Assembly: GCF_017916505.1 (NCBI RefSeq)
Contig: NZ_JAFMSZ010000005.1
Span: forward strand, 1 to 64,000
Reading direction: 5' to 3'
DNA from: Naasia sp. SYSU D00057
GTDB lineage: Bacteria > Actinomycetota > Actinomycetes > Actinomycetales > Microbacteriaceae
DNA length: 64,000 nucleotides
In this document: positions 22,192 to 62,646 of the stretch, piece after piece
Layout of the letters: each line of letters starts with the position of its first letter
Position numbering within the stretch: the first letter of the stretch is position 1
Notes under the pieces: model-generated
The model's input: the letters and a program-made list of their open reading frames with translations, nothing else
The model's database searches: none
Told to the model about the DNA's origin: nothing
Made by a program: the position numbers and the translations under genes

Positions 22192-22268
22192 GCTCAGCAG
22201 GAGCGGAACCTCTTCAGCAGGCGCTCGAGAGCCTTGAGTGCCTGCTGAAGGAGTGGAGTGCCTGCTCA
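22192..22268. repeat. Palindromic quartet repeat A (class I)
   Basis: Forward half-sites TCAGCAGG start at 22194 and 22214 (step 20). Reverse half-sites CCTGCTGA and CCTGCTCA start at 22241 and 22261 (step 20). The inner stem CTTCAGCAGGC (22212-22222) pairs perfectly with GCCTGCTGAAG (22240-22250). It is near-identical to the first part of repeat B at 30774 and lies between convergent genes. Confidence 0.85.
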
Positions 22269-22290
22269 AGGGGGCGAGAGTACGTCGCTG

Positions 22291-22316
22291 GTCTCGAGAC
22301 GCGGCTGCGCCGCTCC
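22291..22316. terminator. GTCTCGAGACGCGGC-type hairpin
   Basis: GCGGC (22301-22305) pairs with GCCGC (22309-22313) inside a GTCTCGAGAC...CTCCTCATCCAG context, directly after the stop of the serine hydrolase. I recall this intergenic sequence type as common in Microbacteriaceae. It may act as a terminator on the minus strand. Confidence 0.5.
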
Positions 22317-23438
22317 TCATCCAGCCGAGGCGTGCAGGGCGATCGTGCGGGCCGCCTGAGCCACGCGGAGGGCGCGCGCGTCCGCCTTCGCCGGGGTCGG
22401 GACGCGCTCGGGGAGGTAGCCGAAGGCGAGCCCGGTGATCGGGTCGGCGAAGCCGATGCCGCCGCCCGCGCCGTCGTGGCCGAACGCGCGCGCCGTGCCG
22501 AAGTCGTGGTCGTCGGCGGGCTTCTGGAAGAGGAGCGAGTAGCGCCGATGACCGCCGAGCACCAGGTCCTCGCCCGCACTGCGCAGCTGCGCGATCCGCG
22601 CCACCGTGCCGGACGACAGCAGCGGGGAGCGCCCGTCGGAGCCGATGGCGAGGGCGTACGCGTCCGCGATGCCGCGCGCGCTGCCGACGCCGGACACGGA
22701 CGCGACGCCGGCCTCGAGCAGCCGCGGGGAGTTTAGCCACGGATCGCCGTCGCCCAGCCAGTCGAAGGGAGCGACGGCGAGGCGGGTGACGTCGCCGGTC
22801 GGGTCGGCCGAGCCGACGGCCGCCCCCGGCATGACCTTGCGCAGTCGCGGCCGCTCACGATCCGGTAGGCGCAGCCAGAAGTCCACGCCGTGCCGGTCGG
22901 CGACCTCCGCCGCCCAGAACTCGGCCGTCGCGGCTCCCGTGATGCGGCGGACCAGCTCGTCGGCCAGGGTGCCGATGGTGAAGGCGTGGTAGCCGTGGGC
23001 GGCGCCGGGCGGCCAGGCCGGCCGCTGAGCGGCGAGATCCGCGGCGCCCGCCGGGCCGGTCGCGTCCGCCCAGGAGAGCCCGGGGGAGAAGCCGGGCAGG
23101 CCGGCGCGGTGCGAGAGCAGCTCGGCGACGGTCATCGCCTCCTTGCCCCCTCGCCCGAACTCAGGCCAGTAGTCGGCGACCGGCCGCTCCTCGTCGAGCG
23201 CTCCGCGCTCGATCAGCAGCCCGAGAGCGATCCCCGTGATCCCCTTCGACACCGACGCGACGGGCTGGATGCGGTCGGGCTCGTCGTCGCCGAAGGTGTG
23301 GGCATCGAGGAGGGTCCCGGCCGGGCCGTGCAGGACGAGCCGGAAGCGCCACGAGGGATCCTCGGCGAGGAACCGGTCGAGAATGCGGAGCAGGTCCTCG
23401 TAGCCGGAATCGAGCGTCGCGACGGTGACGGGCGTCAC
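22317..23438 (-). CDS. Serine hydrolase, beta-lactamase (class C/EstB) fold
   Basis: A 373-residue penicillin-binding-protein-like enzyme. The nucleophile motif is Ser62-x-x-Lys65 in ASVSKG. The tyrosine motif is HGYHAF, a YxN variant. The third motif is HDGAGGG in place of KTG, the pattern of EstB-type esterases and D-aminopeptidases rather than true beta-lactamases. No signal peptide is seen, so it is probably cytoplasmic. The GTG start overlaps the stop of the AraC gene (GTGA), so the two are co-translated. The substrate may be an acyl ester of the compound handled by the neighbouring operon (inference). Confidence 0.82.
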   Translation of the reverse strand: MTPVTVATLDSGYEDLLRILDRFLAEDPSWRFRLVLHGPAGTLLDAHTFGDDEPDRIQPVASVSKGITGIALGLLIERGALDEERPVADYWPEFGRGGKEAMTVAELLSHRAGLPGFSPGLSWADATGPAGAADLAAQRPAWPPGAAHGYHAFTIGTLADELVRRITGAATAEFWAAEVADRHGVDFWLRLPDRERPRLRKVMPGAAVGSADPTGDVTRLAVAPFDWLGDGDPWLNSPRLLEAGVASVSGVGSARGIADAYALAIGSDGRSPLLSSGTVARIAQLRSAGEDLVLGGHRRYSLLFQKPADDHDFGTARAFGHDGAGGGIGFADPITGLAFGYLPERVPTPAKADARALRVAQAARTIALHASAG

Positions 23439-24487
23439 GCGAGCTGGCGCTCGCGGCGCAGCTGCGCCGGCTGCATCCCGGTGGCCCGGCGGAAGCTCGT
23501 CGAGAAGTACTGGCTCGACTGGAACCCGCAGAGCTGCGCGACGTCCGAGACGAGCAGGTCCGTCGTCGTCAGCAGGTGCTTCGCCTGCTCGACGCGCAGC
23601 AGCGACAGGTACTCGAGCGGCGTGAGATTCACCATCTTCTTGCAGTAGTGCACGAAGCGGGTCCGTCCGAGGCCGCACTCCTCGGCCATGCGGTCCACCG
23701 ACCACTGCTCCTGCGTGCGCTCGCGCAGCCGCTGCAGGAACAGGGACACGGTCCGCTCCGTCGACGACAGATACGGGTCGAGGATCGGCTCCTGCTGCTC
23801 GAGGAGGTCGCCCAGCTCGATGAAGATCTCCGCGATGCTCGTCGCGATGCGAGCCATCGGCTGGCTGACCTGACCGCGCAGGGTGCGCTCCAGGGTGTCG
23901 ACCGCCGCGAGCAGCGTCTTGCTCGCCCGCCATACCGGACGCTCGTTGAGGCTCAGCAGCTCGGTCAGCCGCGCGAGGTCGGGCGCGGGGATCGGCAGCC
24001 AGGACGGCCACACCCACTCCTGGTTCGGGCGGCGCACGTCCACGTCGACGATGAACCAGGTGAGCGTCGACGACGAGACGTTCGGCCGGCCCACCCGGTG
24101 CAGCTGCCAGGGCCGGGTGACGGTGATGTGGCCGGCGGTGAGATCGAACTCCTCGTTCTCGCAGGAGAACGGAATCGAACCCGCCGAGACGCACGTGAAC
24201 TCGATGCCCTCGTTGCGGTGCCAGTCGAGGCCCCAGTCCTGGTCGCTCGTGATCTCCCAGCCGCCGACGCTCTTCAGCTGCGGCAGGATCTCGGGCGGAA
24301 TCGGCTCGCCCGGGTAGGTGCCGCGCCCGTACGCCCAGAGCCCGATGTCCCCGGAATCGCCCGCATCCCGCAGGGGAGCGCAGGTGTCAGCGACGAATGT
24401 GCCGCCCGGGCCGATGAAGCGCGGAGCCTCCGCAACGCCGACTGCCGCCGGGCCCTGCCCCTCGCCCATCGCTCTGTCGACCAGCAC
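23435..24487 (-). CDS. AraC-family regulator of a carbohydrate operon
   Basis: A 350-residue regulator. The N-terminal part is a cupin-like effector domain (WHRNEGIEFTCVSAGSIPF, then TAGHITVTRPWQLHRVG). The C-terminal 100 residues hold two HTH motifs, WSVDRMAEECGLGRTRFVHY and LLVSDVAQLCGFQSSQYFST, followed by FRRATGMQPAQLRRER. The GTG chosen has GAGGAGG at 5-nt spacing; the ATG six codons further in has none. It is divergent from a six-gene sugar operon and close to a 31-bp dyad, its likely binding site. It is coupled to the serine hydrolase gene. Confidence 0.87.
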   Translation of the reverse strand: MLVDRAMGEGQGPAAVGVAEAPRFIGPGGTFVADTCAPLRDAGDSGDIGLWAYGRGTYPGEPIPPEILPQLKSVGGWEITSDQDWGLDWHRNEGIEFTCVSAGSIPFSCENEEFDLTAGHITVTRPWQLHRVGRPNVSSSTLTWFIVDVDVRRPNQEWVWPSWLPIPAPDLARLTELLSLNERPVWRASKTLLAAVDTLERTLRGQVSQPMARIATSIAEIFIELGDLLEQQEPILDPYLSSTERTVSLFLQRLRERTQEQWSVDRMAEECGLGRTRFVHYCKKMVNLTPLEYLSLLRVEQAKHLLTTTDLLVSDVAQLCGFQSSQYFSTSFRRATGMQPAQLRRERQLA

Positions 24488-30773: not shown

Positions 30774-30914
30774 GTTCAGCAGGAGCCGGACCCCTTCAGC
30801 AGGCACTCGAGAGCCTTCAGTGCCTGCTGAAGGAGAAAAGTGCCTGCTGAAGAGGGCCGGGTGCCTGCTGAAGGAAAGAAGTGCCTGCTGAAGAGGGCCG
30901 AGTGCCTGCTGAGC
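30774..30914. repeat. Palindromic repeat B (class I) with a five-copy direct array
   Basis: Forward half-sites TCAGCAGG start at 30776 and 30796. Reverse half-sites CCTGCTGA start at 30823, 30843, 30864, 30884 and 30905, with steps of 20, 21, 20 and 21 bp. The central stem CCTTCAGCAGGCACT (30793-30807) pairs perfectly with AGTGCCTGCTGAAGG (30819-30833). Compared with repeat A, the reverse half-site has been amplified from two to five copies. Confidence 0.9.
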
Positions 30915-48617: not shown

Positions 48618-48641
48618 GTCGCCGTTCCCGGCTCGCGGTCG

Positions 48642-48722: not shown

Positions 48723-48740
48723 GCCGCCGACGGCCGTGAC

Positions 48741-50591
48741 TTAGACCAGGAGCTGGTGCTTCGCGAGCTCTCGGTAGACCGGCACGGTGCTGACGAGCTC
48801 GGAGTGCGTGCCGATGCCGAGGACGCGGCCGTGATCGAGCACGACGATCTGGTCGGAGTCGACCACCGTGGACAGCCGGTGCGCGATGACCACGAGGGTG
48901 CGGTCCTCGGCGACGGCGTCGATCGCCTCGCGCATCCGCTGCTCGTTCACTCCGTCGAGGCTCGACGTCGACTCGTCGAGCAGCAGGATGGGCGGCGCGG
49001 CGAGCAGCGTGCGCGCGATCGCGAGCCGCTGGCGCTCCCCGCCGGACAGCATGATGCCGTCCTCGCCCACCTGAGCGTCGAGTCCCGCCGGGTCACGGTC
49101 GAGGACGTCGGCGAGGTTCACCCGGTGCAGCACCTCGGCGCACTGCTCGTCGGTGGCATCGGAAGCGGCGAGCAGCAGGTTGTCCCGCAGGGATCCGGCC
49201 AGCACCGGCGCATCCTGCTCGACGTAGCCGATCTGTGCCCGCAGGCTCTCCCGGGCGAGGCCGCGGATGTCGATGCCGCCGAGGCGGATGACGCCGGAGT
49301 CCGGGTCGTAGAACCGCTCGACGAGGGCGAGGATCGTGCTCTTGCCCGCCCCCGACGGGCCGACGATCGCGGTGCGCGACCCGCGGGGCACGCGGAAGCT
49401 GACGCCGTGCAGCACAGGCTGGCGCACGATCTCGGCCGGGGACTCCTGCCCCGGCTCCTGCTCGGCGAGGGCGGTGTAGCCGAAGCGGACGTCCTCGAAC
49501 TCGAGGGCCGGCGCATCCGGCCGCACCGCCGAGTTGGCCGCGCCGACCACGACGGCCAGGGGCGCGATGTCGCGGTCGTGCTCGGTCTCGGTCGGCAGGG
49601 CGAGGACCTCCTGGATGCGCCCCAGCGCGCCGAGCGCCTGGTTCACCGCGTTGACGGCGCCGAAGAACTGGGCGAGCGGCATGATCATCATGAACAGGAA
49701 GAGGATGAACGCGACGAGGCTCGCGACGGTGATCGCGCCGCTCGCGACGCGGAAGCCGCCGACGCCGAGGACGACGAGGAACGACACCTGCATCGCGATG
49801 CCGGCGATCGGCACGATGAGCGCGGAGATGCGGGCCACCTTGATGCCCTGCCGCCAGGCGCCCTCGGCCTCCTCGCTGATGGCGTCCACCTCGCGCTCAG
49901 TGGCACCGGCGGCGCGGACGGTGCGGATCGCGCTGATTGCGCGCTCCACCGCGGCCGCGAGGTCGCCCACCTTCTTCTGCCCCTCCTGGACGGCGGGCCG
50001 GATGCGGGCGGACAGGGCGACCACGGTGACGACGGCCACCGCGACGACGAGCAGGGTGAGCAGCAGGAGCACCGGATCGAGGATCGCCATCGCGATGAGG
50101 GCGCCCACGAACGTGATCGCGCCGCCGACGGACTCGACCGCGCCCTGCGTGAGCACTGCGCGCAGCAGGGTGGTGTCCGAGCCGACGCGGGACACGAGGT
50201 CGCCGACGCGGCGGGTGTCGAACTCGCGGATCGGCAGGTGGAGCATCCGGTGGATCAGGTGCCGCCGGGAGCTGAGGACGACGCCCTCACCGGTGCGCTG
50301 GAGCAGGTAGTGCTCGTAGCCGTCGAGCAGTGCCGCGACGATGACGAGCAGGACGAGCAGCCAGACGAGCGGGCCGAGCGGCTCGCCGGCCTCGACGACC
50401 GTGATGACCTGACTGACGAGCAGCGGCTGCGCGAGCGAGGCGACGGCGCCGAGGACGCTGAGGGTGAGGATCAGCACGAGGACCGGGCGGTGCTCGAACA
50501 GGTAGGGGAGGAGCTGGCGCAGGGAGGCGCGCGGACCGGAGTCGGCGCGGGAGCGGCGACCGAGACGCGGCCGTGCGGCGGAAGAACTCAT
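48741..50591 (-). CDS. ABC exporter half-transporter (fused membrane and ATPase domains)
   Basis: A 616-residue MsbA/LmrA-type exporter. Six spans lie in residues about 30-320. The ATPase domain follows with Walker A GPSGAGKST, signature LSGGERQ, Walker B ILLLDEST and the switch IAHRLSTV. It would work as a homodimer exporting lipid, drug or peptide. A small HTH gene lies 7 nt upstream on the same strand, with paired operators ahead of it, so the exporter is under local repression. Confidence 0.92.
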   Translation of the reverse strand: MSSSAARPRLGRRSRADSGPRASLRQLLPYLFEHRPVLVLILTLSVLGAVASLAQPLLVSQVITVVEAGEPLGPLVWLLVLLVIVAALLDGYEHYLLQRTGEGVVLSSRRHLIHRMLHLPIREFDTRRVGDLVSRVGSDTTLLRAVLTQGAVESVGGAITFVGALIAMAILDPVLLLLTLLVVAVAVVTVVALSARIRPAVQEGQKKVGDLAAAVERAISAIRTVRAAGATEREVDAISEEAEGAWRQGIKVARISALIVPIAGIAMQVSFLVVLGVGGFRVASGAITVASLVAFILFLFMMIMPLAQFFGAVNAVNQALGALGRIQEVLALPTETEHDRDIAPLAVVVGAANSAVRPDAPALEFEDVRFGYTALAEQEPGQESPAEIVRQPVLHGVSFRVPRGSRTAIVGPSGAGKSTILALVERFYDPDSGVIRLGGIDIRGLARESLRAQIGYVEQDAPVLAGSLRDNLLLAASDATDEQCAEVLHRVNLADVLDRDPAGLDAQVGEDGIMLSGGERQRLAIARTLLAAPPILLLDESTSSLDGVNEQRMREAIDAVAEDRTLVVIAHRLSTVVDSDQIVVLDHGRVLGIGTHSELVSTVPVYRELAKHQLLV

Positions 50592-50598
50592 CGAGACC

Positions 50599-50814
50599 TC
50601 ATTTTCGTCCGTACTTCTTGTGAACCGCCTGCCGGGAGACCCCGAGCGCGAGCGCGATGATCTGCCAGGACAGCCCGGCGTTGCGTGCGCGGCGGACGGT
50701 CACGGTCTCGATCGCGTCGAGCTCGCGGCGCAGCTCGGCGATCGCCCGCAGCGCGGCGTAGGGGTCGTCGGAGTCCGCGTTCCCGACGAGGGTGCGGATC
50801 GAGTCGATGCTCAC
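50599..50814 (-). CDS. 71-residue HTH regulator of the ABC exporter
   Basis: A small basic DNA-binding protein. An N-terminal helical part contains DDPYAALRAIAELRRELDAI. The C-terminal HTH is GLSWQIIALALGVSRQAVHK, followed by KYGRK. Two perfect dyads, GTCAAC-N4-GTTGAC, overlap its own promoter, so it is probably an autorepressor that also governs the exporter 7 nt downstream. The GTG start is 7 nt after the -10 box TAGCGT (leaderless). Confidence 0.85.
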   Translation of the reverse strand: MSIDSIRTLVGNADSDDPYAALRAIAELRRELDAIETVTVRRARNAGLSWQIIALALGVSRQAVHKKYGRK

Positions 50815-50817
50815 AAT

Positions 50818-50862
50818 GTCAACGCTAGTTGACAGCGAGGGCTGTTGTCAACCTGTGTTGAC
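50818..50862 (-). promoter_or_regulatory. Promoter with two GTCAAC-N4-GTTGAC operators
   Basis: The dyads are at 50818-50833 and 50847-50862, centres 29 bp apart. On the minus strand the -35 box TTGACA (50846-50851) lies in the distal dyad and the -10 box TAGCGT (50822-50827) in the proximal dyad, with an 18-bp spacer. Both boxes would be covered by bound repressor. Confidence 0.8.
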
Positions 50863-50880
50863 GCAGCCCGAGGCGCGACG

Positions 50881-51312
50881 TCAGTCGAAGACGACGCCCT
50901 TCTGCAGGATGAAGCAGCCGTAGGGACGGCTCTCGAGGGTCTTCACCACCGCGTACACGCCCTTGGCGCGCTCGTAGAACTCGAGGCGCGGCACGATGCC
51001 GTACTCGAGCGGCTTCTCGTGGCCGGCGCGGGCGACCTCGAGAACCTCGTCCTGGACCTCGACGACGATGGACGGGTCGTCGTCGACCTCCATGCGCTCG
51101 AGCGGCCGCTCCACGAACGTGTCGAGGGGGAAGACGGAGAGGATCGCCTCCGCGGCGCGCGTCTGCGTGATGTCGCCCAGGTGGATGACCGGCTTGCCGC
51201 TCGCGTGTGCGGGGTAGTTGCGGTCGACGAGCAGCAGCGTGTCGCCGTGGCCCATCTCGTCGAGCACCTTCAGCAGCTCGCCGGTGAGGACCGGGTCGAC
51301 TCCCTTCAGCAT
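50881..51312 (-). CDS. RbsD/FucU-family sugar mutarotase
   Basis: A 143-residue protein of the RbsD/FucU fold, which interconverts sugar anomers. Signatures are LDEMGHGDTLLLVDRNYPAH with the catalytic His, and a C-terminal RLEFYERAKGVYAVVKT and YGCFILQKGVV. The sequence looks closer to FucU. It follows an MHS transporter gene by 10 nt and lies near a ribokinase gene, suggesting pentose or deoxysugar use. Confidence 0.87.
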   Translation of the reverse strand: MLKGVDPVLTGELLKVLDEMGHGDTLLLVDRNYPAHASGKPVIHLGDITQTRAAEAILSVFPLDTFVERPLERMEVDDDPSIVVEVQDEVLEVARAGHEKPLEYGIVPRLEFYERAKGVYAVVKTLESRPYGCFILQKGVVFD

Positions 51313-51322
51313 GAGCCGAGCC

Positions 51323-52696
51323 CTACGGGGCGAGGGAGCCGGCGCTGCCGAGCTCCTGCTCCGGCTCGCCCGTGAGGTCGCGGTCACGCGTCTCGCGGGT
51401 GAGGATCAGGGCGATGAGGGTGAGGACCGCGGCGCCCGTCAGGTAGAGGCCGACGAGAAAGATGTTCCCCTCCGCCGACCACAGGCTGAGCGCGATCGTC
51501 GGGGCGAGCGAGGCGCCCAGGATGCTGGCGACGTTGTAGGCGATCGCCGATCCCGTGTATCGCGTGTTCGTGGGGAACAGCTCGGGCAGCAGGGCGCCCA
51601 TCGGGCCGAAGGTGAGACCCATGAGCGCGAGCCCGGCGATGAGGAACAGGGCGACGACCGCGGGGTCGCGCGCCTCGGCGAACCAGGATTGGAAGGTGAG
51701 GCCGAACACCGCGATGAGGATGGTGGTCGCAATCAGCGTGCGACGGCGGCCGTAGCGGTCCGCGAGGATGCCGGCGAGGGGGGTCAGCAGGCCGAAGAAC
51801 ACGACGCCGATGAGCAGCAGCACGAGGAACTCGGGGCGGGTGTAGCCGAGGCCGACCTTGACGCCTTCGCCCGGCTCCGTCGGAGCGGTGCCGTAGGTGA
51901 GGGTGAACGTGGTCATGAAGTAGAAGAGCACGTAGGTCGCGAGCATCACGAAGGTGCCGAGGATGAGCGGCCGCCAGCTGTGGCGGAACACCGTCGCGAG
52001 CGGCAGCTTCACGCGCTCGCCGCGGTCGACCGACTGCTGGTAGACGGGCGTCTCGACGAGCTTGAGGCGGACGTACAGGCCGACGACGACGAGCACCGCG
52101 CTCAGCAGGAACGGCACGCGCCAGCCCCAGGCGGCGAAGGCCTCCGGGTCCATGCTGAGCGAGAGGGCGAGGAACAGGCCGTTCGCCATGATGAAGCCGA
52201 TGGGAGCGCCCAGCTGCGGGAAGGTGCCGTAGATGGCGCGGCGGTTCTGGGGCGCGTTCTCGATGGCGAGGAGGGCGGCGCCGCTCCACTCGCCGCCGAG
52301 GCCGAGGCCCTGGCCGAAGCGGAGGAGCGCGAGGATCGCGGGCGCCCAGAGGCCCCAGGTCTCGAAGGTCGGCAGCAGGCCGATGAGGAACGTCGCGATG
52401 CCCATGACGAGCAGGGAGGCGACCAGCGTGACCTTGCGCCCGTGGCGGTCGCCGAAGTGGCCGAAGATCACCGATCCGACGGGGCGCGCGAAGAACGCGA
52501 GCGCGAAGGTCGCGAACGAGGACAGCTGGGCGGCCGTCGCGTTCTCGTTCGGGAAGAACAGCGCGGGGAACACGAGCACCGCGGCCGTCGCGTAGATGTA
52601 GAAGTCGTAGAACTCGATCGACGTTCCGATGAGGCTCGCGACGATCACCCGTGAGCGGGGATTGACGGGGGTGACTGTTCCGGCGGTCGACGTCAT
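51323..52696 (-). CDS. MHS-family major facilitator transporter
   Basis: A 457-residue 12-span symporter of the metabolite:H+ symporter group. GTSIEFYDFYIYATAAVLVF marks the first span, GHFGDRHGRKVTL the loop 2-3 motif, and RFGQGLGLGGEWSGAALL the fourth span. Family substrates include citrate, alpha-ketoglutarate, shikimate and betaines; here the RbsD/FucU and ribokinase neighbours argue for a sugar or sugar acid. It is divergent from rbsK, with a 95-bp shared gap. Confidence 0.87.
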   Translation of the reverse strand: MTSTAGTVTPVNPRSRVIVASLIGTSIEFYDFYIYATAAVLVFPALFFPNENATAAQLSSFATFALAFFARPVGSVIFGHFGDRHGRKVTLVASLLVMGIATFLIGLLPTFETWGLWAPAILALLRFGQGLGLGGEWSGAALLAIENAPQNRRAIYGTFPQLGAPIGFIMANGLFLALSLSMDPEAFAAWGWRVPFLLSAVLVVVGLYVRLKLVETPVYQQSVDRGERVKLPLATVFRHSWRPLILGTFVMLATYVLFYFMTTFTLTYGTAPTEPGEGVKVGLGYTRPEFLVLLLIGVVFFGLLTPLAGILADRYGRRRTLIATTILIAVFGLTFQSWFAEARDPAVVALFLIAGLALMGLTFGPMGALLPELFPTNTRYTGSAIAYNVASILGASLAPTIALSLWSAEGNIFLVGLYLTGAAVLTLIALILTRETRDRDLTGEPEQELGSAGSLAP

Positions 52697-52779
52697 CTTC
52701 AGTCCTCGTTCACGTGTACGGCGTCCCGTCCGGCGGAGAGGGACCGAACGAGTTTACGCCTTTCCTGCGAAGAGGCTGA

Positions 52780-52785
52780 CAGGAT
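52780..52785 (+). promoter_or_regulatory. Possible leaderless -10 box of rbsK
   Basis: CAGGAT lies 6 nt before the GTG. The first base departs from TAnnnT, and the GGGGG between could serve as a ribosome site, so the reading is uncertain. Confidence 0.3.
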
Positions 52786-52791
52786 GGGGGC

Positions 52792-53607
52792 GTGGGACGT
52801 GTCGTCGTGGTCGGTTCGCTCAACGTCGACTCCGTGGTGACCGTCGAGCGCCATCCGCGGCCGGGCGAGACCGTACTGGGCGGCGACCTCCGCACCCTCT
52901 TCGGCGGCAAGGGCGCGAACCAGGCCGTGGCAGCGGCGCGCGCGGGCGCCCCGGTCGCGATGATCGGGCGGGTCGGCAGCGACTCGTCCGGCGCCGGCTA
53001 CCTGGAGCGGCTGGCCGACCTCGGCATCGACGCGTCCGGGGTGACGCGTGACCCCGAACGAGGCACCGGGCACGCGGCGATCGCCGTCGCTGCGGACGGC
53101 GAGAACACGATCATCGTGTCGCCGGGCGCGAACGCCGGTGTCGGAGTCGACGACCTCGCGCCGCTCTCCGCCCTCGCTCCCGGCGACGTGCTGCTCGTGC
53201 AGCTCGAGCTCCAGCTCGACGTGGTCGCGGAGGCGGTGCGCCGGGCCGCATCCGCGGGCGCGCGAGTCGTCCTCAACGCGGCCCCCTACGCGGATCTGCC
53301 CGCCGATGTGCTCGCGCTCGCCGACCCGGTGGTCGTCAACGAGCACGAGGGGGAGCTGCTCGCCGCCGCCGGGCTCGACGCATCCTCGCTGCTGACGACG
53401 CTCGGCGGGGAGGGCGCCCGCTGGGGCGACCTCTCAGTCCCCGCCGCCCGCGTGGAGCGGGTCGTGGACACCACGGGAGCCGGTGACGCGTTCTGCGGAG
53501 CCCTCGCCGCCGCGCTGGCGGGGGGCGCGTCCCGTGAGGGCGCCCTCCGGGCTGCGGCCGCCGCGGGCGCGGAGGCGGTCGGCTGGCCGGGAGCTCAGCC
53601 CGCCTGA
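52792..53607 (+). CDS. rbsK: Ribokinase
   Basis: A 271-residue PfkB-family sugar kinase. The N-terminal VVGSLNVDSVVTVERHPRPG and GGKGANQAVAAARAG bind the sugar, and DTTGAGDAFCGALAAAL holds the catalytic Asp. It phosphorylates ribose or a related sugar. It is some 30 residues shorter than typical RbsK, mostly near the end of the ATP domain. The neighbouring mutarotase and transporter fit a sugar uptake unit. Palindromic repeat D follows the stop. Confidence 0.88.
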   Translation: MGRVVVVGSLNVDSVVTVERHPRPGETVLGGDLRTLFGGKGANQAVAAARAGAPVAMIGRVGSDSSGAGYLERLADLGIDASGVTRDPERGTGHAAIAVAADGENTIIVSPGANAGVGVDDLAPLSALAPGDVLLVQLELQLDVVAEAVRRAASAGARVVLNAAPYADLPADVLALADPVVVNEHEGELLAAAGLDASSLLTTLGGEGARWGDLSVPAARVERVVDTTGAGDAFCGALAAALAGGASREGALRAAAAAGAEAVGWPGAQPA

Positions 53608-53621
53608 GCCGGCTGTTCCCT

Positions 53622-53704
53622 GTCCCTCAACAGGCATTTCTCCCGCCAACAGGCGGAATCCGGTCGATTCTGCCTGTTGGCGGGATTTGCGCCTGTTGAG
53701 GGAC
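53622..53704. repeat. Palindromic quartet repeat D (class III)
   Basis: Forward CAACAGGC starts at 53628 and 53647. Reverse GCCTGTTG starts at 53672 and 53691. Steps are 19, 25 and 19. The outer stem GTCCCTCAACAGGC pairs perfectly with 53691-53704. The inner stem CCCGCCAACAGGC (53642-53654) pairs with 53672-53684, extended by GAAT/ATTC. Same architecture as class II with a different arm sequence. It lies between convergent genes. Confidence 0.92.
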
Positions 53705-53730
53705 GGGGGCGACCGTGAGGAGCGGGACTT

Positions 53731-54213
53731 CTAGGAGGAGCGGATCTTCCGCACGAGGAGGGCCGCGCGGACGGCGGCCTCCGCCGCCTCGGCGCCCTTG
53801 TCCTCCTTCGACCCGGGGAGCCCGGCCCGGTCGAGGCCCTGCTGCTCGTCGTCGAGGGTGAGCACGCCGAAGCCGACCGGCTTGCCGGTCAGCAGTGCCA
53901 CCTGGGTGAGTCCGCTCGTCGCGGCGTCCGCCACGTAGTCGAAGTGCGGGGTGCCGCCGCGGATGATGACGCCGAGCGCGACCGCCGCATCCGCCCCGCC
54001 GTCGAGCGCCGCCTTGCTGAGCAGGGGCAGCTCGAAGCTGCCGGGGGCGTCGATCTCGACGATCGTCGCGCCCATCGTCTCCAGCGCTCGGCGGGCTCCG
54101 GCGCGCAGGCCGTCGGCGATCTCCGCGTGCCAGGTGCCGGCGACGATCGCGACCTTCAGGCCGCGCGCGTCGATGTCCTTCAGCGACGCCTGGGGCGCGC
54201 CTTTTCCGCTCAT
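53731..54213 (-). CDS. ribH: 6,7-dimethyl-8-ribityllumazine synthase
   Basis: A 160-residue lumazine synthase, the penultimate step of riboflavin synthesis. Family segments are VAIVAGTWHAEIADGL, IDAPGSFELPLLSKAA, ALGVIIRGGTPHFDYVADAA with the catalytic His, and PVGFGVLTLDDEQQGLDRAG. Its ATG overlaps the ribBA stop (ATGA). It is the last gene of the rib operon. Confidence 0.96.
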   Translation of the reverse strand: MSGKGAPQASLKDIDARGLKVAIVAGTWHAEIADGLRAGARRALETMGATIVEIDAPGSFELPLLSKAALDGGADAAVALGVIIRGGTPHFDYVADAATSGLTQVALLTGKPVGFGVLTLDDEQQGLDRAGLPGSKEDKGAEAAEAAVRAALLVRKIRSS

Positions 54214-55487
54214 TGCTGTCCTTCCAGGGTGGAGAGCGGAGCCAGGATGGCTCCGTCGGCGATGGAGTGGCCCATCCTGTCTCTCTTGGTCTCGAGGTAG
54301 CCCTCGTTCTGCGGCGTCACGCCGACGACGAGCGGCACCCGGTCCCGGACGGTGACGCCGTGCTCCTCGAGCTGGCGCACCTTCTCCGGGTTGTTCGTGA
54401 GCAGCCGGACCTCGGTGAGACCGAGGTCGGCGAGGATCGCGCTCGCGGCGCCGTAGTCGCGGGCGTCGGCGGGCAGGCCGAGCGCGAGGTTCGCGTCGAG
54501 GGTGTCGAGGCCCTCCTCCTGCAGTCGGTAGGCGCGCAGCTTGTTGACGAGGCCGATGCCGCGTCCCTCGTGGCCGCGCAGGTAGACGACGACACCGCCC
54601 TCGCGCTGGATCTCCTCGAGCGCGACGTCGAGCTGGGGTCCGCACTCGCACTTCAGGGAGCCGAACGCCTCCCCGGTCAGGCACTCCGAGTGCACGCGGA
54701 CGAGCGCGCCCGCCTGCGGCGTCCCGGAGACGATGGCGACGTGGTCGGCGCCGGTGAGGCCGTCGCGGTAGGCGCGCATCCGGAAGGGGCCGTGCTCGGT
54801 CGGCACGGTGGTCTCCACCTCGAAGCGCACGCGCGGGGAGTCCTCGGCGACGGCAGCCTCGCAGCGGCGCGCCTCGCCCGGATTGGAGCGCAGGTACTCG
54901 AGGAGGATCGCGATGGTCGTGACGACCACGCCCTCCCGCTCCCCGAACTTGATGAGCTCGGGCAGGCGCATCATCTCGCCGTCGTCGGCGACGACCTCGC
55001 CGATCGCCGCGACCGGCTGCAGGCCGGCGAGCTTCATCAGGTCGACGGCCGCCTCGGTGTGGCCCGGCCGCTCGCGGACGCCGCCGTCGACGGCGCGCAG
55101 CGGCAGCACGTGCCCGGGCCGGATCAGCCGGGACGGCGTCGCGGTCGGGTCGGCGAGGGTGCGCAGAGTGTGGGCGCGGTCGGAGGCGCTGATGCCGGTT
55201 GACAGCCGGTCGGCGGCGTCGACCGTGACCGTGTAGTTGGTGCCCCGGGCGTCCTCGCTCACCGCGACCATCACCGGCAGCTCGAGGCGGTCGGCGTACT
55301 CGGCGGGCATCGGGGCGCAGATGAACCCGGAAGTGTGCCGGATGGTCCAGGCCATCGTCTCCTGGGTGACGAGCTCGGCGGCCAGGATGACGTCGCCCTC
55401 GTTCTCGCGGCCCTCGTCGTCCGCCACGAGGACGGGACGACCGGCCCGCAGGGCCTCGAGGACCTGGGGAATGCTCGCGAGACTCAT
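54210..55487 (-). CDS. ribBA: Bifunctional DHBP synthase/GTP cyclohydrolase II
   Basis: A 425-residue fusion. The N-terminal RibB half (about 1-205) has VADDEGRENEGDVILAAELV, the Asp/Glu-rich metal loop, and RPGHVLPLRA and RPGHTEAAVD. The C-terminal RibA half has the zinc cysteines ECLTGEAFGSLKCECGPQL and LRGHEGRGIGL. It makes both precursors of riboflavin, from ribulose 5-phosphate and from GTP. It is overlapped by 4 nt at both ends by ribE and ribH. Confidence 0.96.
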   Translation of the reverse strand: MSLASIPQVLEALRAGRPVLVADDEGRENEGDVILAAELVTQETMAWTIRHTSGFICAPMPAEYADRLELPVMVAVSEDARGTNYTVTVDAADRLSTGISASDRAHTLRTLADPTATPSRLIRPGHVLPLRAVDGGVRERPGHTEAAVDLMKLAGLQPVAAIGEVVADDGEMMRLPELIKFGEREGVVVTTIAILLEYLRSNPGEARRCEAAVAEDSPRVRFEVETTVPTEHGPFRMRAYRDGLTGADHVAIVSGTPQAGALVRVHSECLTGEAFGSLKCECGPQLDVALEEIQREGGVVVYLRGHEGRGIGLVNKLRAYRLQEEGLDTLDANLALGLPADARDYGAASAILADLGLTEVRLLTNNPEKVRQLEEHGVTVRDRVPLVVGVTPQNEGYLETKRDRMGHSIADGAILAPLSTLEGQQ

Positions 55488-56128
55488 CTCGCGCCTCCTT
55501 CTGCTGCGCTCGGTAGGCGGTCGCCGAATGCGACCAGACGGCGGACGTGCCGCGCGAGCACGTCCGTCTCGACGTTGACCACATCGCCCGGCTCGAGGGA
55601 GCCGAGCGTGGTGGCGACGAGGGTCTCGGGGATGAGACTCACCTCGAACCAGGACGGCGCATCCCCGGGCTCGCTGACCGCGGAGACGGTGAGCGAGACG
55701 CCGGCGACGGTGATCGAGCCCTTGTCCACGACGAGCGGGGCGAGGGCGGGGTCGAGCGCGAAGCGCAGGACGCGCCAGTGCTCCTGGTCGCTGCGGGCGA
55801 GGAGCGTCGACGTGCCGTCGACGTGCCCCTGCACGATGTGGCCGCCGAGGCGGTCGCCCACGCGGGCGGCGCGCTCGAGGTTGACCCGCGTGCCGACCGT
55901 CACGCCGGCGAGGGCGGACACGGCGAGGGTCTGGCCCATCACGTCGGCGGTGAACCAGTCCGGCCCCTGCTCGACGACGGTGAGGCAGACGCCGCTGACG
56001 GCGATCGAGTCGCCGTGGCGAGCGTCGGAGACGGCGAGCGGAGCCCGTACGGTGAGGCGGGCGCTGCCGTCGGGCAGGCCGTCGAAGCCGGTGATCTCCC
56101 CGAGCTCCTCGATGATTCCGGTGAACAT
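55484..56128 (-). CDS. ribE: Riboflavin synthase alpha subunit
   Basis: A 214-residue protein made of two similar lumazine-binding barrels. MFTGIIEELGEI opens the first, with GDSIAVSGVCLTVVE; the second has GSITVAGVSLTVSAV. It forms riboflavin by dismutation of two lumazine molecules. The ATG is one base after the ribD stop and its own stop overlaps the ribBA ATG. Confidence 0.95.
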   Translation of the reverse strand: MFTGIIEELGEITGFDGLPDGSARLTVRAPLAVSDARHGDSIAVSGVCLTVVEQGPDWFTADVMGQTLAVSALAGVTVGTRVNLERAARVGDRLGGHIVQGHVDGTSTLLARSDQEHWRVLRFALDPALAPLVVDKGSITVAGVSLTVSAVSEPGDAPSWFEVSLIPETLVATTLGSLEPGDVVNVETDVLARHVRRLVAFGDRLPSAAEGGAR

Positions 56129-56129
56129 G

Positions 56130-57173
56130 TCAGTCCTCCTCGAACTCGCGTCGCGGACGGGCGACGATCCGGACGTCCGCGCCGATCGTGTCGGCGGAGA
56201 CGAGCTCCATGTGCCGGGCGTCGGCGATGCTGCCGATCCCGAGGTCACCCGTGGCGAGGCGGCCGCCGCCGAGCACGACGGGGGCCAGGTAGACGAGGAC
56301 CTCGTCGACGAGGCCCGCGCGCAGCAGCGCGCTCTCGAGCGTCGGCCCGCCCTCGACGAACACGTGGCGCACGCCCTCGTCCCAGAGTGCGGCGAGCACG
56401 GCGCCGAGGTCCCGTCCGTCGAAGGAGCGGAACCCGCCCGGGTGGCGCCGGACGGCGGCGTCCTCCGGTATCGGGCGCTCGCCGAGCGCCACCGCGATCG
56501 GCTGGTGGGGGAGCAGGTCGCCGGCCTCGGTGCGGGCGGTGAGCGCGGGGTCGTCGGCGAGGACCGTGCCGGTGCCGACGAGGATCGCACCCGCCTGGGC
56601 GCGGCGCAGGTGCACGTCGGTGCGGGCGTCCGGCCCGGTGATCCACTTGCTGGTGCCGTCGGCGGCGGCGATGCGGCCGTCCAGGCTCGACGCCCACTTG
56701 GCCGTGACGAACGGTCGGCCGAGCCGGGATGCGGTGAGCCACACGACGAGCGCGTCCTCGACGAGGCCGCGCAGCACTCCGCCGATCACCTCGACGCCCG
56801 CCGCGGCGAGGCGCTCCGCGCCGCCGTCCGCCTGCGGCGACAGGTCGGGCACGGCGTAGACGACGCGGGCGACGCCGGCCGCGATGAGCGCCTCGCTGCA
56901 GGGGCCGGTGAGGCCCGTGTGATTGCAGGGCTCGAGCGTCACGACGGCGGTAGCGCCGCGGGCGCCGCCCTCCGGCAGCTTCGACAGCGCGTCGACCTCT
57001 GCGTGCGGGGTGCCCGCGCCGCGGTGCCAGCCCTCGGCGAGCACCGAGCCGTCCGGGCCGAGGAGGACGCAGCCGACCTGGGGGTTGCGGGTCCAGGCGG
57101 GTCCGCGGAGGCCGAGCTCGAGGGCGCGCGCCATCGCGCGCTCCAGGGGAGCCGTGCCGCTCGCGTCGCTCAT
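56130..57173 (-). CDS. ribD: Bifunctional pyrimidine deaminase/reductase
   Basis: A 347-residue RibD. The deaminase half has the zinc site HAE (His57, Glu59) and PCNHTGLTGPC (Cys83, Cys92). The reductase half begins VTAKWASSLDGRIAAADGTS and contains GTGTVLADDPALTAR and VFVEGGPTLESALL. It carries out two consecutive steps of riboflavin synthesis. It is the first gene of the operon and lies 75 nt after an FMN riboswitch. The ATG chosen gives the usual RibD length; longer frames run into the riboswitch. Confidence 0.95.
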   Translation of the reverse strand: MSDASGTAPLERAMARALELGLRGPAWTRNPQVGCVLLGPDGSVLAEGWHRGAGTPHAEVDALSKLPEGGARGATAVVTLEPCNHTGLTGPCSEALIAAGVARVVYAVPDLSPQADGGAERLAAAGVEVIGGVLRGLVEDALVVWLTASRLGRPFVTAKWASSLDGRIAAADGTSKWITGPDARTDVHLRRAQAGAILVGTGTVLADDPALTARTEAGDLLPHQPIAVALGERPIPEDAAVRRHPGGFRSFDGRDLGAVLAALWDEGVRHVFVEGGPTLESALLRAGLVDEVLVYLAPVVLGGGRLATGDLGIGSIADARHMELVSADTIGADVRIVARPRREFEED

Positions 57174-57248
57174 TCCGCCTCGTCCGTGATCTGGACTCCG
57201 GGGGTGGACGCTGTCGTCGCCGTGGCAGGGCAGCCTCGACGACCCGTG

Positions 57249-57370
57249 CTTCTCCCATCCAGACTGTGACTGTCGGTTCCGGAATTCCACCGGATCGGCC
57301 GGCGCTCGCCCGAAGGCGCTCGCCGGTTCGCGGACTTTGACCGCCGGTTCGGAATTACACCGACCCCGGA
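57249..57370 (-). promoter_or_regulatory. FMN riboswitch (RFN element)
   Basis: On the minus strand the conserved RFN blocks appear in order: GGGGTCGGTGTAATTCCGAA, CCGGCGGTCAAAGTCCGCGA, a variable hairpin CGAGCGCC...GGGCGAGCG, GATCCGGTGGAATTCCGG, ACCGACAGTCACAGTCTGGA and TGGGAGAAG. FMN binding would shut off the downstream rib genes, either by termination or by hiding the ribosome site; which one is unclear. Confidence 0.95.
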
Positions 57371-57389
57371 GCACGTGTTGCTTGCTTCA

Positions 57390-57395
57390 GTTATA
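57390..57395 (-). promoter_or_regulatory. -10 box of the rib operon promoter
   Basis: TATAAC on the minus strand, about 20 bp upstream of the riboswitch. A weak -35 box TTCGAC lies 17 bp further upstream. Position is right for transcription starting just before the aptamer. Confidence 0.6.
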
Positions 57396-57454
57396 CGGCA
57401 ACGCGAGGGCCCGTCGAATATTCCCGGGTGCCCGGGCGGGCGCCCCGTCCGCGC

Positions 57455-58180
57455 TCAGCGGCGCAGGAGCACGTCCGGAACCTCGTCGAGACCCTCGACC
57501 CGCACGACGCCGAGAGCCTCCGCCTCCGCCGCCCGGGCGCTATCGAGGGGCTCGTGCCGCCGGTCGAGCCACACGCCGGTCAGGCCGGCCGCGGCGGCTC
57601 CCATGGCATCCGTGCGCAGCCGGTCGCCCACGTACGCGGCCTTGCCCGGCGCGACGCCGAGCCGCTCGCAGGCGAGCTCGAAGATGCGCCGGTCGGGCTT
57701 CGTGACGCCCACGTCGCCGGAGGCGACGACGACGTCCATGCGGCTGGAGAGGAGCATCGCGTCGAGCTTCGTGGTCTGGAAGTCGAGCTCGCCGTTCGTG
57801 ATGATCCCGAGCCGCTGGCCGGCCGCGGTGAGCGCGTCGAGGCAGGGGAGCGCGTCGTCGTGCAGCCGCCACGCGTCGCGGTACTCCCGCAGGTACGCGG
57901 TCCACCACTCGTCGGCCTCGGCGTCGCTGAGCGGCGGGGCGCCCGACGCCGTCATGAGGTCGGCGGCACGGGCGCGGCGCTGCCCTAGGTAGGTGAGCTC
58001 GCCCGCGAGGTACCGGTGGTAGTGGTGCTCCTCGATGTCCCGCCAGCGGGCGCGGATCAGCTCGGGGTCCTCGACGGCGATCCCCGTGGTCCTGAGGTGC
58101 GCGACGATCGCGGCCTCGACCGCGGAGCGGTGGGCGAAGAGAGTGTCGTCGAGGTCGAAGAGCACCGCGCGGAGCGTCAC
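57455..58180 (-). CDS. HAD-family hydrolase
   Basis: A 241-residue haloacid dehalogenase-superfamily phosphatase. Motif I is LFDLDDTLF, motif II is IITNGELD, motif III Lys is in GVTKPDRRIFE, and motif IV is VGDRLRTDAMGA. A helical cap lies between residues about 20 and 105. It probably dephosphorylates a small metabolite. Location downstream of the rib operon's riboswitch region but transcribed toward it raises the idea of a riboflavin-phosphate phosphatase, which is only a guess. The GTG start is 48 nt after trpS. Confidence 0.87.
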   Translation of the reverse strand: MTLRAVLFDLDDTLFAHRSAVEAAIVAHLRTTGIAVEDPELIRARWRDIEEHHYHRYLAGELTYLGQRRARAADLMTASGAPPLSDAEADEWWTAYLREYRDAWRLHDDALPCLDALTAAGQRLGIITNGELDFQTTKLDAMLLSSRMDVVVASGDVGVTKPDRRIFELACERLGVAPGKAAYVGDRLRTDAMGAAAAGLTGVWLDRRHEPLDSARAAEAEALGVVRVEGLDEVPDVLLRR

Positions 58181-58228
58181 GGCAGCAGCCGGACCCGTCG
58201 CTCGGTGCGCAGCTCGAAGGGGCCCATG

Positions 58229-60134
<1,906 letters not shown>

Positions 60135-60140
60135 CGCTCA

Positions 60141-60146
60141 ATTCTA
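60141..60146 (-). promoter_or_regulatory. -10 box of a leaderless promoter for xthA
   Basis: TAGAAT on the minus strand, 6 nt before the ATG; a good match to TATAAT with no ribosome site between. Confidence 0.55.
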
Positions 60147-60185
60147 GGGAGCGCCACCGACACGCTCTTCGACGCCGGCTGTGCA

Positions 60186-60272
60186 CCTGCACTCGGCAGG
60201 ACTTCCTGCACTGAGCAGGACATCCGGCCCGGAAAGGTCCTGCTGGCTGCAGAACGTCCTGCTGACTGCAGG
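60186..60272. repeat. Palindromic quartet repeat E (class II)
   Basis: Forward GCAGGAC starts at 60196 and 60215. Reverse GTCCTGC starts at 60237 and 60256. Spacing is 19-22-19. The outer stem is GCAGGACTTCCTGCA against TGCAGAACGTCCTGC with two mismatches, plus an extra CCTGCA/TGCAGG pairing outside. It lies upstream of xthA and downstream of the YihY gene's stop. Confidence 0.9.
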
Positions 60273-60283
60273 CGCGGCGACTG

Positions 60284-61486
60284 CTAGTGGGCGCCCTCGT
60301 CCTCGCGCGCGAACTCCTCGGTCGTGGGCACCGCCGCCCGTCGCCGCGCCTCGGCGCGCACGTCGCGCTTGATGCGCCGGCGGAGCGCGAGCCGGCGGAG
60401 GCCGCGGGCGTTGCGGTACTCCTCCTCGGCCTGCCGGTGGTTGGCGTCGGCGACGAGGCGGCGGGCCTCCTCGAGCTTGAGGGCGTCCTCCACCTCCGTC
60501 TCCTCCTTGCTGAGGCTGCGGGGCTCGATGCCGGCGTCCTGCATCCCGACGTCGATCCAGGACGCGGCGATCAGCAGCACCTGGCAGAAGAAGTTGAAGA
60601 AGATGAGGAGACCGATGATCACCGCGAAGCCGGCGAGGAGCGGGTTGTTGCCGACGCCGCCGATGAGGCCCTGCGCGAAGGCCGCCTTGAGGACGCCGAT
60701 GCCGACCGCGCCGATGGCGGCGCCCACCGCGAGCCGCTTGAGGGGGATCGGGACTGCGGACAGGATGCGGTACGCGGCGGCCACCGTGATGAAGTCGACG
60801 AGGAAGACGAGGACGTAGCCGATCACCGTGCTGACGACGACGGCGAACAGCGACTGCTCGTCGATGCCGAGGAAGGTCAGCGTTGCCCGCACGGCTCCGT
60901 TGGTGATGAAGGTGAGGCCCGCGGAGACGAGGATGAGGACGCCGAAGCCGAGGGCGAGCCCCAGGTCGCGCAGCTTCTGCAGCACGATCATGGTGGTGTC
61001 GGGCGGCAGCGCGAAGATGCGGCGGACGGCGTCGCGCATCGAGGCGAGGAAGCCGAGCGCGGTGAGCAGCAGTCCGACGAGGGCGATGGCGCCCGTCCAG
61101 CTGAGCGTGTCGGCGGAGAGCAGGTCGTCGGGGTCGACGGCGCCCTCGCCGTTCTCGCCGAGCAGGCCGGGGACGGTCGTGTTGATGCCGCTGATGAGCC
61201 CGTCACGGAGGACGGGGTTGCCGGCGATGATGAAGCCCGCGATCGAGAAGGTCACCCAGAGCGCGGCGAAGGTCGCGAAGACGGCGTTGTAGCTCATCCC
61301 GGCGGCGAGCAGAGGTCCGCCGTCCTCGTTGTAGTGCTGCAGCACCCGCATGGGGCGCGAGGCGGTTATCCGCTGGATGAGCCCCGCGAACCCGGTCTTC
61401 TGCTCTTCGGGGGTGGGCTTGGCGCTGGGCGCGGTCGCGACGGTCTCCCCGTCCCGCACGGCCAGCGTGTCGGCGTCCTTCGCCAT
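60284..61486 (-). CDS. YihY/virulence factor BrkB family membrane protein
   Basis: A 400-residue protein with six spans and the family pattern GPLLAAGMSYNAVFATFAAL near the start, with the later NPLLAGFAVIIGLLIFFNFF and QVLLIAASWID. A charged cytoplasmic tail of about 80 residues (EETEVEDALKLEEARRLVAD and onward) follows. Function of the family is not settled; it was once taken for RNase BN. The ATG is 6 nt after a TAGGCT -10 box. Confidence 0.88.
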   Translation of the reverse strand: MAKDADTLAVRDGETVATAPSAKPTPEEQKTGFAGLIQRITASRPMRVLQHYNEDGGPLLAAGMSYNAVFATFAALWVTFSIAGFIIAGNPVLRDGLISGINTTVPGLLGENGEGAVDPDDLLSADTLSWTGAIALVGLLLTALGFLASMRDAVRRIFALPPDTTMIVLQKLRDLGLALGFGVLILVSAGLTFITNGAVRATLTFLGIDEQSLFAVVVSTVIGYVLVFLVDFITVAAAYRILSAVPIPLKRLAVGAAIGAVGIGVLKAAFAQGLIGGVGNNPLLAGFAVIIGLLIFFNFFCQVLLIAASWIDVGMQDAGIEPRSLSKEETEVEDALKLEEARRLVADANHRQAEEEYRNARGLRRLALRRRIKRDVRAEARRRAAVPTTEEFAREDEGAH

Positions 61487-61492
61487 GCCGGA

Positions 61493-61498
61493 AGCCTA
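61493..61498 (-). promoter_or_regulatory. -10 box of a leaderless promoter for the YihY-family gene
   Basis: TAGGCT on the minus strand, 6 nt before the ATG, without a Shine-Dalgarno sequence. Confidence 0.5.
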
Positions 61499-61576
61499 TG
61501 GCCGGGCCCCGGTGCCCTGCCGACTGCCGCCCCGCGGTTGCCCCGCCGCCCGCCTCCCTGCTACGGCGCCGCCTCA

Positions 61577-61643
61577 GCAGGACTTTCTGCAAACAGCAGG
61601 ACTTCTGGGCCCGGAATGTCCTGCTCAGTGCAGAAAGTCCTGC
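61577..61643. repeat. Palindromic quartet repeat F (class II), overlapping a gene end
   Basis: Forward GCAGGAC starts at 61577 and 61596. Reverse GTCCTGC starts at 61618 and 61637. Spacing is 19-22-19. The outer stem GCAGGACTTTCTGCA (61577-61591) pairs perfectly with 61629-61643, and the inner AGCAGGAC pairs with GTCCTGCT around GGGCCC. The right outer arm is also the last codons of the DUF559-type gene. Confidence 0.92.
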
Positions 61644-62497
61644 CGAGTGGTGCGAGCTGGGGCGTGCTGCGAAAGGGTCGAGAGGACGGTCGCCTCGACG
61701 GTGGGCCAGTCGTAGACGACGCTGCCGTAGTCGAACTGGAGGGTGAGCTTGCCGTCGCGGTACAGACTGCTGATGCGCCGCCGGTCCTTCGAGAACGAGG
61801 CCGCCTGCGCATGGAACTCCCGGCCATCGAGCTCGACCACCAGCCAGTCGTCGATGAGGAGATCGACCCGGCCGATGCCCGGCAGGACGACCTGCGGCTC
61901 AGCGCGCACTCCGCGAAGGGCGAGACGGTAGCGCGCGATGGATTCGATGCCCGACTCGCTGCGTGCATCGAGAAGGTGGGAGAGCGCGGCCGCGTGAGCC
62001 GAGGTGGACGCCAGCACCGAGCGGAGGCGGTTCTCCGAGATGATCCGCCGCTGCATCAGCGAATCCAGGACGGCCACGGCGAACCAGGACGGCTGGCAGG
62101 ACACGAGGTGACGCACGCTCGCCTCGGGAGGACTGGCCGCGAATCGGGACCCGATCGCGTGACCACCACCGTGCCAGTGCACCGTGACCTCGTCCGATTC
62201 CGCCGTCGCGAGCCGTCGGCCGGACGCGGACGGTGACATCGCGACGTGCAGCCGAGGATCCGGCGGTCGCCACGCTCCGGTTGCGGCCAGAGCCGTGACG
62301 CATCCCGCCCGCCCACCGAGCTGCATTGCACGCACCACATCCGGGTTGGCGCCGACAGCCGCGTACCAGCCGCGCACGACCGGACGGAGGCGTCCTTCTC
62401 GAACGGCCGTCTCGACTCCATGTCGAGTGACCCCCTGCGCTCGGAGGTCCGCTGCGCTGAACACGCCGAAGGCTGACATGGCGACGAGTGTCGGCAT
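61625..62497 (-). CDS. AbiEi-like winged-helix protein with DUF559 (Vsr-like nuclease) domain
   Basis: A 290-residue protein. The N-terminal part (about 5-55) resembles the AbiEi antitoxin/transcriptional-regulator wing (FSAADLRAQGVTRHGVETAV). The C-terminal 100 residues follow the DUF559/very-short-patch-repair nuclease fold: GIGRVDLLIDDWLVVELDG, then FSKDRRRISSLYRDG. Such proteins are abundant orphans in actinobacteria and have no proven toxin partner. The last seven residues, TRQDFLH, come from palindromic repeat F. The start is either 62497 (AGAAG upstream) or 62479. Confidence 0.78.
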   Translation of the reverse strand: MPTLVAMSAFGVFSAADLRAQGVTRHGVETAVREGRLRPVVRGWYAAVGANPDVVRAMQLGGRAGCVTALAATGAWRPPDPRLHVAMSPSASGRRLATAESDEVTVHWHGGGHAIGSRFAASPPEASVRHLVSCQPSWFAVAVLDSLMQRRIISENRLRSVLASTSAHAAALSHLLDARSESGIESIARYRLALRGVRAEPQVVLPGIGRVDLLIDDWLVVELDGREFHAQAASFSKDRRRISSLYRDGKLTLQFDYGSVVYDWPTVEATVLSTLSQHAPARTTRQDFLH

Positions 62498-62571
62498 CGC
62501 AGTGCTTCTGAGGAGCACCGGCGGCTCGACCGTGGGGAGCGCCACCTCACCCGCCGCTGTGGAGGGCCGCG

Positions 62572-62646
62572 GTCAGCAGGATTTTCTGCAACTAGCAGGA
62601 CAAATCAGGCCGAGAAGTCCTGCTGAATGCAGAAAGTCCTGCTGAC
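62572..62646. repeat. Palindromic quartet repeat G (class II)
   Basis: Forward GCAGGA starts at 62576 and 62595. Reverse GTCCTGC starts at 62617 and 62636. Spacing is 19-22-19. The outer stem GTCAGCAGGATTTTCTGCA (62572-62590) pairs with 62628-62646 over 19 bp with one G-T wobble. It lies 11 nt beyond the sdhB stop. Confidence 0.92.

Follow-up and report, generated by a model that had tools for sequence, protein, structure and literature searches.

Seven long palindromes scattered over a 64,000-nucleotide stretch of Naasia sp. SYSU D00057 raise the question of what they are and whether a gene of the same genome belongs to them. The stretch, hereafter the window, is part of a 3.36-Mb assembly labelled G000 (contig NZ_JAFMSZ010000005.1, positions 1 to 64,000), and each palindrome, hereafter a quartet, consists of two forward half-sites, a centre and two reverse half-sites. 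A first-pass annotation had described the quartets and offered three explanations for them, namely mobile palindromes like the repetitive extragenic palindromes (REPs), binding sites for a dimer-of-dimers protein, or structured 3' RNA ends. Judging from sequence comparison, we propose that the quartets are probably (at a probability of roughly 0.7) the recognition sites, together with dispersed solo derivatives of these, of a family of winged-helix/Vsr-like nucleases, the window member of which is encoded at 61625-62545 on the minus strand. This candidate partner lies within the region that the first-pass annotation had covered and was missed there. The best reading of the arrangement is that it resembles a REPtron lacking the REP-associated tyrosine transposase (RAYT), the GTAG tag and target-site duplications.

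All seven elements, to which no strand is assigned, are present where they had been reported. Quartets A (22195-22267) and B (30777-30849) form class I, C (48647-48717), E (60194-60264), F (61575-61645) and G (62574-62644) form class II, and D (53628-53698), with the half-site CAACAGG and a stem that reaches approximately 53618-53708, represents class III. The start-to-start spacing of 19-22-19 claimed for the four class II copies was borne out, with one mismatch in the first half-site of G (GCAGGAT), and the pattern GCAGGAC..GCAGGAC..GTCCTGC gave seven matches on both strands, every one inside these four copies, and none in 100 shuffles. The fixed geometry described earlier extends to all classes: in the register of CARCAGG half-sites the centre spacing, from forward to reverse starts, is 26 in classes I, II and III, and the arm period (20 in A and B, 19 in C to G) is the sole difference in spacing between the classes, with four half-sites in a length of 71-73 bp. 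This common centre had been overlooked, as had the extra reverse half-sites after quartet B (30862-30912; reverse TCAGCAGGC at 30863, 30883 and 30904). A motif-blind search of the window for equal-arm quartets returned exactly the seven, with period 19 or 20, against one in each of two controls. The seven fold as long hairpins of -51.6 to -86.7 kcal/mol (z -3.9 to -14.3).

The candidate gene is flanked by two class II copies, G as its 5' bracket and F as its 3' bracket. The latter overlaps the final codons, with the stop inside F, and in this copy the earlier statement that the quartets lie just past a stop codon does not hold. The predicted protein has 306 amino acids, with an N-terminal AbiEi-type winged helix and a C-terminal Vsr/DUF559/MTES_1575-type nuclease domain. 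Its own matches are below cut-off, both for the AbiEi-type N-terminus (Pfam E 3.4e-5, 24.3 bits against a cut-off of 25) and for MTES_1575 and DUF559 at the C-terminus. Every one of eight aligned homologues is recognised by the MTES_1575 and DUF559 models (best E 1.8e-10 and 1.2e-12) and by the PADLOC AbiEi models, and six are recognised by AbiEi_4. The family profile run against the PDB gave 3hrl (E 1.1e-6) and 3r3p, 'Mobile intron protein' (E 0.0073), which we take to be I-Bth0305I. A single-sequence structure model of the nuclease protein was too poor for use (mean predicted local distance difference test score 43). Analysis of 56 family proteins demonstrates that the active-site residues are intact: E201, D228, H245 and D254 are kept in all 56, D240 in 55 and E238 in 51, with R255 less constant (46 of 56).

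The majority of the homologues are bracketed. The same palindromic 8-mer occurs in both 350-nucleotide flanks of 32 of the 56 homologues (19 genomes) and of 2 of 503 control genes of similar length, and 23 homologues share at least two such 8-mers; one of the two positive control genes is the gene between quartets E and F. The gene of the window does not pass this strict test, since its 3' palindrome is cut by the stop inside F. The set of 56 combines 49 of 59 rows, ten weak or broken pieces (five per search) having been dropped, with seven of the nine rows of a phylum search, the other two being G000 again; the phylum search found homologues in at least 3 of 246 genomes, the best nine candidates per genome being scored. 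A statistic of shared flank 9-mers overlapped the controls (median 24 against 7, with 242 of 503 controls reaching 8); the palindromic 8-mer test took its place. The only other homologue in G000 at E<=1e-5 (C11:21787-22620, 52% identical) lies between class I arrays. The syntenic gene is bracketed by CAACAGG or CAGCAGG palindromes in G004, G006, G003 and G007, a second G004 copy has CGGATCCG arrays on both sides, and a copy in G001 lies next to CGGATCCG repeats. A broken copy of the nuclease gene in G008 (L103:17256-17727) is still flanked by two CAGCAGG quartets.

The motifs in these brackets vary among genes, yet a frame of about 19-26-19 comes back with unrelated letters. Counted by 9-mer starts, CGTGTAGGT recurs at +19 +26 +19 at the G024 gene, CGAGCAGGA at +19 +26 +19 at the G188 gene and TCCGGCAGC at +19 +26 at the G127 gene. 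Several motifs also have solo copies. The G024 flank motif, searched in 15 genomes, gave eight quartets, all of them in G024; two of the eight bracket the source gene, one lies beside another homologue and five are elsewhere. Likewise, 160 kb of G006 contain six further copies of the G006 motif AATCAAGGAGA; no copy was found in 813 kb from other genomes. Within Naasia the CARCAGG-type gene and the quartets co-occur, G001 and G002 being without both (as judged by the syntenic locus and the 20-bp pattern). Furthermore, at least two motif 8-mers are shared by 64% of the 11 pairs whose proteins are at least 60% identical, and by 5 to 8% of the pairs under 40%.

The seven quartets belong to a much larger population. 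Fixed-geometry patterns with up to three mismatches found 47 copies at 19-bp arm spacing and 76 at 20-bp in G000, and the reversed pattern found none in the same search; a covariance model built from six class II copies gave at least 83 rows at E<=1 with both strands counted, the best 150 of 1923 candidates being scored. When 13 x 13 x 13 spacings of CARCAGG half-sites were compared over 296 kb of G000, 68 of 70 quartets fell on (20,26,20) or (19,26,19). The stretches, apart from the window, were picked in part by means of the class II model, and this model has a bias towards such geometry. In class I arrays, half-sites are often added in steps that alternate between 20 and 21 bp, close to two DNA turns. 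A tandem class I array with a period of about 94 bp lies at L057:3009-3640 (G000 C11:560108-560739).

Across genomes, the 19-bp pattern is present in 8 of 199 Microbacteriaceae genomes (3 of 4 sampled Naasia, 2 of 3 in genus g17 and 3 of 3 in g72), the 20-bp pattern in 5 of 9 Naasia genomes, and the chromosome of Naasia aerilata has a locus matching the class II pattern. Since a first motif-free detector allowing unequal arms had a high background (28 in G004 against 31 and 19 in controls), an equal-arm search was used instead. Over 536 kb from seven further Naasia species, a period of 19 or 20 was shared by 21 of 29 equal-arm quartets (controls 0 of 23 and 3 of 8), a count that still includes CGGATCCG, its own reverse complement, and some doubtful matches; in other genera and families the figure was 0 of 6 (400 kb). 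Equal-arm quartets with unrelated letters include GCGAGCGC in G002 and CGGCAACG in G004. Two others are CGGATCCG repeats, whose letters are self-complementary and which are therefore weaker proof. Quartets of GCGAGCGCG with period 19 were seen in G002 (L123:2373, L123:14551 and L124:16296), and no nuclease homologue carrying this motif was found in that genome.

The conserved part of the quartets looks like a set of recognition sites rather than an RNA stem. The mean majority-base frequency in half-sites and in the remaining positions is 0.99 and 0.64 in class I, 0.92 and 0.73 in class II, and 0.98 and 0.72 in class III. Among the three explanations first offered, the dimer-of-dimers binding site fits best, with near-invariant half-sites, rigid spacing and free spacers. 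The same features, together with the half-sites added to class I arrays at about two helical turns, could also be produced by a sequence-specific DNA binder such as a regulator, an insulator or a nucleoid protein, the quartets being operators or arrays kept for the host, for instance as two-way roadblocks between convergent genes, and the nuclease activity being unimportant. The placement of the 70 G000 copies agrees with such a role, 44 being convergent, 20 tandem, 4 divergent and 2 undetermined in the fetched stretches with our own gene calls; so do the match of the PADLOC AbiEi models to all eight aligned members and the age of the copies, none of which is near-identical to another. However, a protein acting only as a binder would leave unexplained why 51 to 56 of the 56 members retain the catalytic-type residues. 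Fixed host sites, moreover, would not usually vary in motif by gene and by genome, or give way to a different palindrome or to none in the orthologous gaps of other Naasia, as often happens here; the gap of quartet D has a CGGCAAC-type palindrome in G004 and a CCGCATC-type one in G006. We therefore regard a host-serving binder as unlikely, if the strongest of the alternatives.

Divergent copies also qualify the first-pass statement that no quartet lies between divergent starts, which is correct in the window and incorrect genome-wide. The condition set to refute the family, a lack of further copies or their random placement, was checked, and the family was not refuted.

Two-way intrinsic terminators, or hairpins stabilising 3' RNA ends, spread by chance or by conversion, would account for very stable hairpins sited after stop codons and in convergent gaps, and the likeness to terminators as stable hairpins at gene ends is real. 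Nevertheless, the absence of a T-tract noted earlier was upheld within 20 nucleotides on either side of the seven and extends to 72 of 73 elements overall, and among four terminator-like calls in 48500-63000 (2.8 in shuffles) none is at a quartet. The spacer arms are no more complementary within an element than between elements (0.40 and 0.44 in class I, 0.59 and 0.61 in class II, 0.52 and 0.56 in class III), and no consistent covariation was detected between column pairs, a few single pairs reaching z 2 to 2.7 among about 150 tested. A selected stem ought to show compensatory change, and since none is consistent, stem pairing was rejected as the main constraint and protein recognition of the half-sites is the better reading; the proposal of structured 3' RNA ends is not supported as the main constraint either. 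Conserved letters and a fixed internal 19-bp direct repeat are, moreover, not required by a terminator. We consider this explanation quite improbable for the quartets as a whole, termination as a side effect of them being still compatible with what is seen.

The weakest account makes the quartets either REP or REPIN sequences belonging to a RAYT or the miniature derivatives of a classical DDE transposase, the nuclease gene being a passenger. It is hardly credible: placement and arrays are REP-like and the gene is bracketed by repeats as in REPtrons (PMC3733652), but Y1_Tnp has no match in any of nine Naasia genomes (5 of 14 control genomes were positive; the search was limited to Y1_Tnp, DDE families not being searched), the GTAG end is absent from all 73 elements, CGTC falls inside the end window in 16 of 73, target-site duplications do not exceed shuffled pairs, and a single gene family is repeatedly bracketed by differing motifs. 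A RAYT partner was rejected on the first two of these results. From the REP-like option of the first-pass annotation there remain a dispersed population, mostly placed after stop codons, some arrays and a bracketed gene; the Y1_Tnp transposase and the GTAG tag do not.

Several observations weigh against the assignment of the quartets to the nuclease family. The strict two-flank test is failed by 24 of the 56 homologues; there is little or no bracket by eye at G001:64209, G014:330200, G033:557797 and both G041 copies, and at G001:292863 a bracket is visible in one flank only. The CAACAGG motif of the syntenic G006 gene has no copies elsewhere in 160 kb, and G006 has 14 CAGCAGG quartets; the flank motifs of G002:1039954 and G001:377522 have no copies in 80-kb samples. 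G007 has the gene, no quartets by the 20-bp pattern and two model rows. The g72 genomes G081, G150 and G204 have 9, 3 and 3 CAGCAGG quartets, and their detected homologues are bracketed by other motifs. No nuclease gene matching the class III CAACAGG quartets (53628-53698 in the window, and L068:3009) was found in G000; class III may be a relic of what the syntenic gene recognised earlier, because this gene carries CAACAGG in G004 and G006. The overall correlation between protein and motif is weak (rho 0.10, reached by 3 of 500 permutations), and E197 is kept in only 30 of 56 proteins. Finally, the best pair of non-neighbouring quartets is 0.89 identical, with medians of 0.68 to 0.74, which indicates old copies, and target-site duplications are no more frequent than in re-paired flanks in any of the three classes, although old copies could have lost them. 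With neither near-identical dispersed copies nor target-site duplications, there is no sign of recent movement.

In the nuclease reading of the quartets, the winged helix would read one half-site, and four subunits, arranged as two head-to-head dimers, would assemble on one quartet. The nuclease may then cut or nick the DNA at the quartet, and repair or replication would, over long times, copy, replace or maintain the quartets, as has been proposed for RAYT and REP. Quartets would survive where they are least harmful, mostly after stop codons, and the enzyme and the letters of its sites would change in step. A side effect of the quartets, by which transcription between convergent genes is ended or blocked, may make such slots tolerable. 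More tentatively, and at somewhat less than even odds, we suggest a self-maintaining element, in which a winged-helix/EDxHD-type nuclease cuts its own quartets and repair of the breaks copies and homogenises them chromosome-wide, with specificity and letters co-drifting and the 19-26-19 frame fixed by the tetramer. In that case a homing-type enzyme, instead of a transposase, would run a population of REP-like sequences.

Several known systems were compared with the quartets. REPs are described in PMC3733652 as dispersed, mostly intergenic palindromes, often located after stop codons and some in arrays, with a dedicated DNA-processing gene flanked by them. The quartets are similarly dispersed extragenic palindromes in many copies with a dedicated gene flanked by them, but a putative winged-helix/Vsr-like nuclease stands in for the HUH tyrosine transposase, and instead of a tagged hairpin of 20-40 bp there are four half-sites in a fixed frame without a GTAG tag. 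CGTC-tagged palindromic repeats, which the same paper presents as dispersed and without a dedicated transposase (PMC3733652), are short with CGTC at one end, whereas the quartets are longer and symmetric, and CGTC near an end is confined to the minority given above. The lack of excess target-site duplication, which age could also explain, is unlike classical insertion sequences and miniature inverted-repeat transposable elements. According to PMC3943268, the EDxHD homing endonuclease I-Bth0305I dimerises on a two-fold DNA target of nearly 60 bp, so a nuclease of this type can use a long two-fold site. The candidate nuclease shares with these enzymes the Vsr-like fold assignment and the long two-fold target predicted for it; it differs in lying outside introns and phage genes, in its N-terminal AbiEi-type domain, and in having its motif on both gene flanks and in dispersed solo copies. 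The AbiEi antitoxins of AbiE systems share that type of N-terminal domain, which is here fused to a nuclease-type domain.

The other genes around the quartets are mixed. Among 85 neighbours scanned, the 25 families listed of 197 have at most two members each, and no family listed is enriched; the nuclease therefore stands out by its brackets and not by its number. The candidate gene neighbours a BrkB gene and presumably an sdhB-type gene, judging by the sequence of the latter; no AbiEii toxin gene beside it turned up in this general scan, no search dedicated to it having been made. An Rfam scan of the window placed no family over the quartets, the gathering score being met by a flavin mononucleotide (FMN) riboswitch and 5S rRNA alone. 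The FMN riboswitch (57243-57377, minus strand) lies upstream of a riboflavin cluster, in which DMRL synthase was found and which ends at the gap of quartet D, and the end of a 5S rRNA gene occupies 1-82 on the plus strand. Among other Naasia genomes, a second family of long palindromes, TGATTGAGGAGCGC...CGTCTCGAAATC, occupies convergent gaps of G006 (L116:11066 and L119:13426), and several species have a hairpin family around GAGATGCC..CACTTTC-like letters without clear quartets (L125:12901, L122:7585, L104:12978, L107:3775 and L111:14232).

The first-pass annotation knew of no named family with this geometry. Our search of the open-access literature, which leaves most subscription papers uncovered, found no publication that links palindromes of this kind to a Vsr-like gene. 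The organisation, dispersed palindromes with a dedicated gene, is known from REPtrons; what would be new here is the enzyme, and there is a real chance that the system is a separate class. Testing the claim would cost little, as the flanks of every gene give its predicted target. If it is true, the pairing of a palindrome with a dedicated gene, so far known with HUH transposases, would have arisen again from a different nuclease fold, and proteins known only as AbiEi-type and DUF559 would gain definite DNA targets for tests in vitro. It would also give a hint of where to seek the partners of other partnerless repeats. The homologues with different half-sites in one frame offer a natural series on how the DNA code of a winged helix changes.

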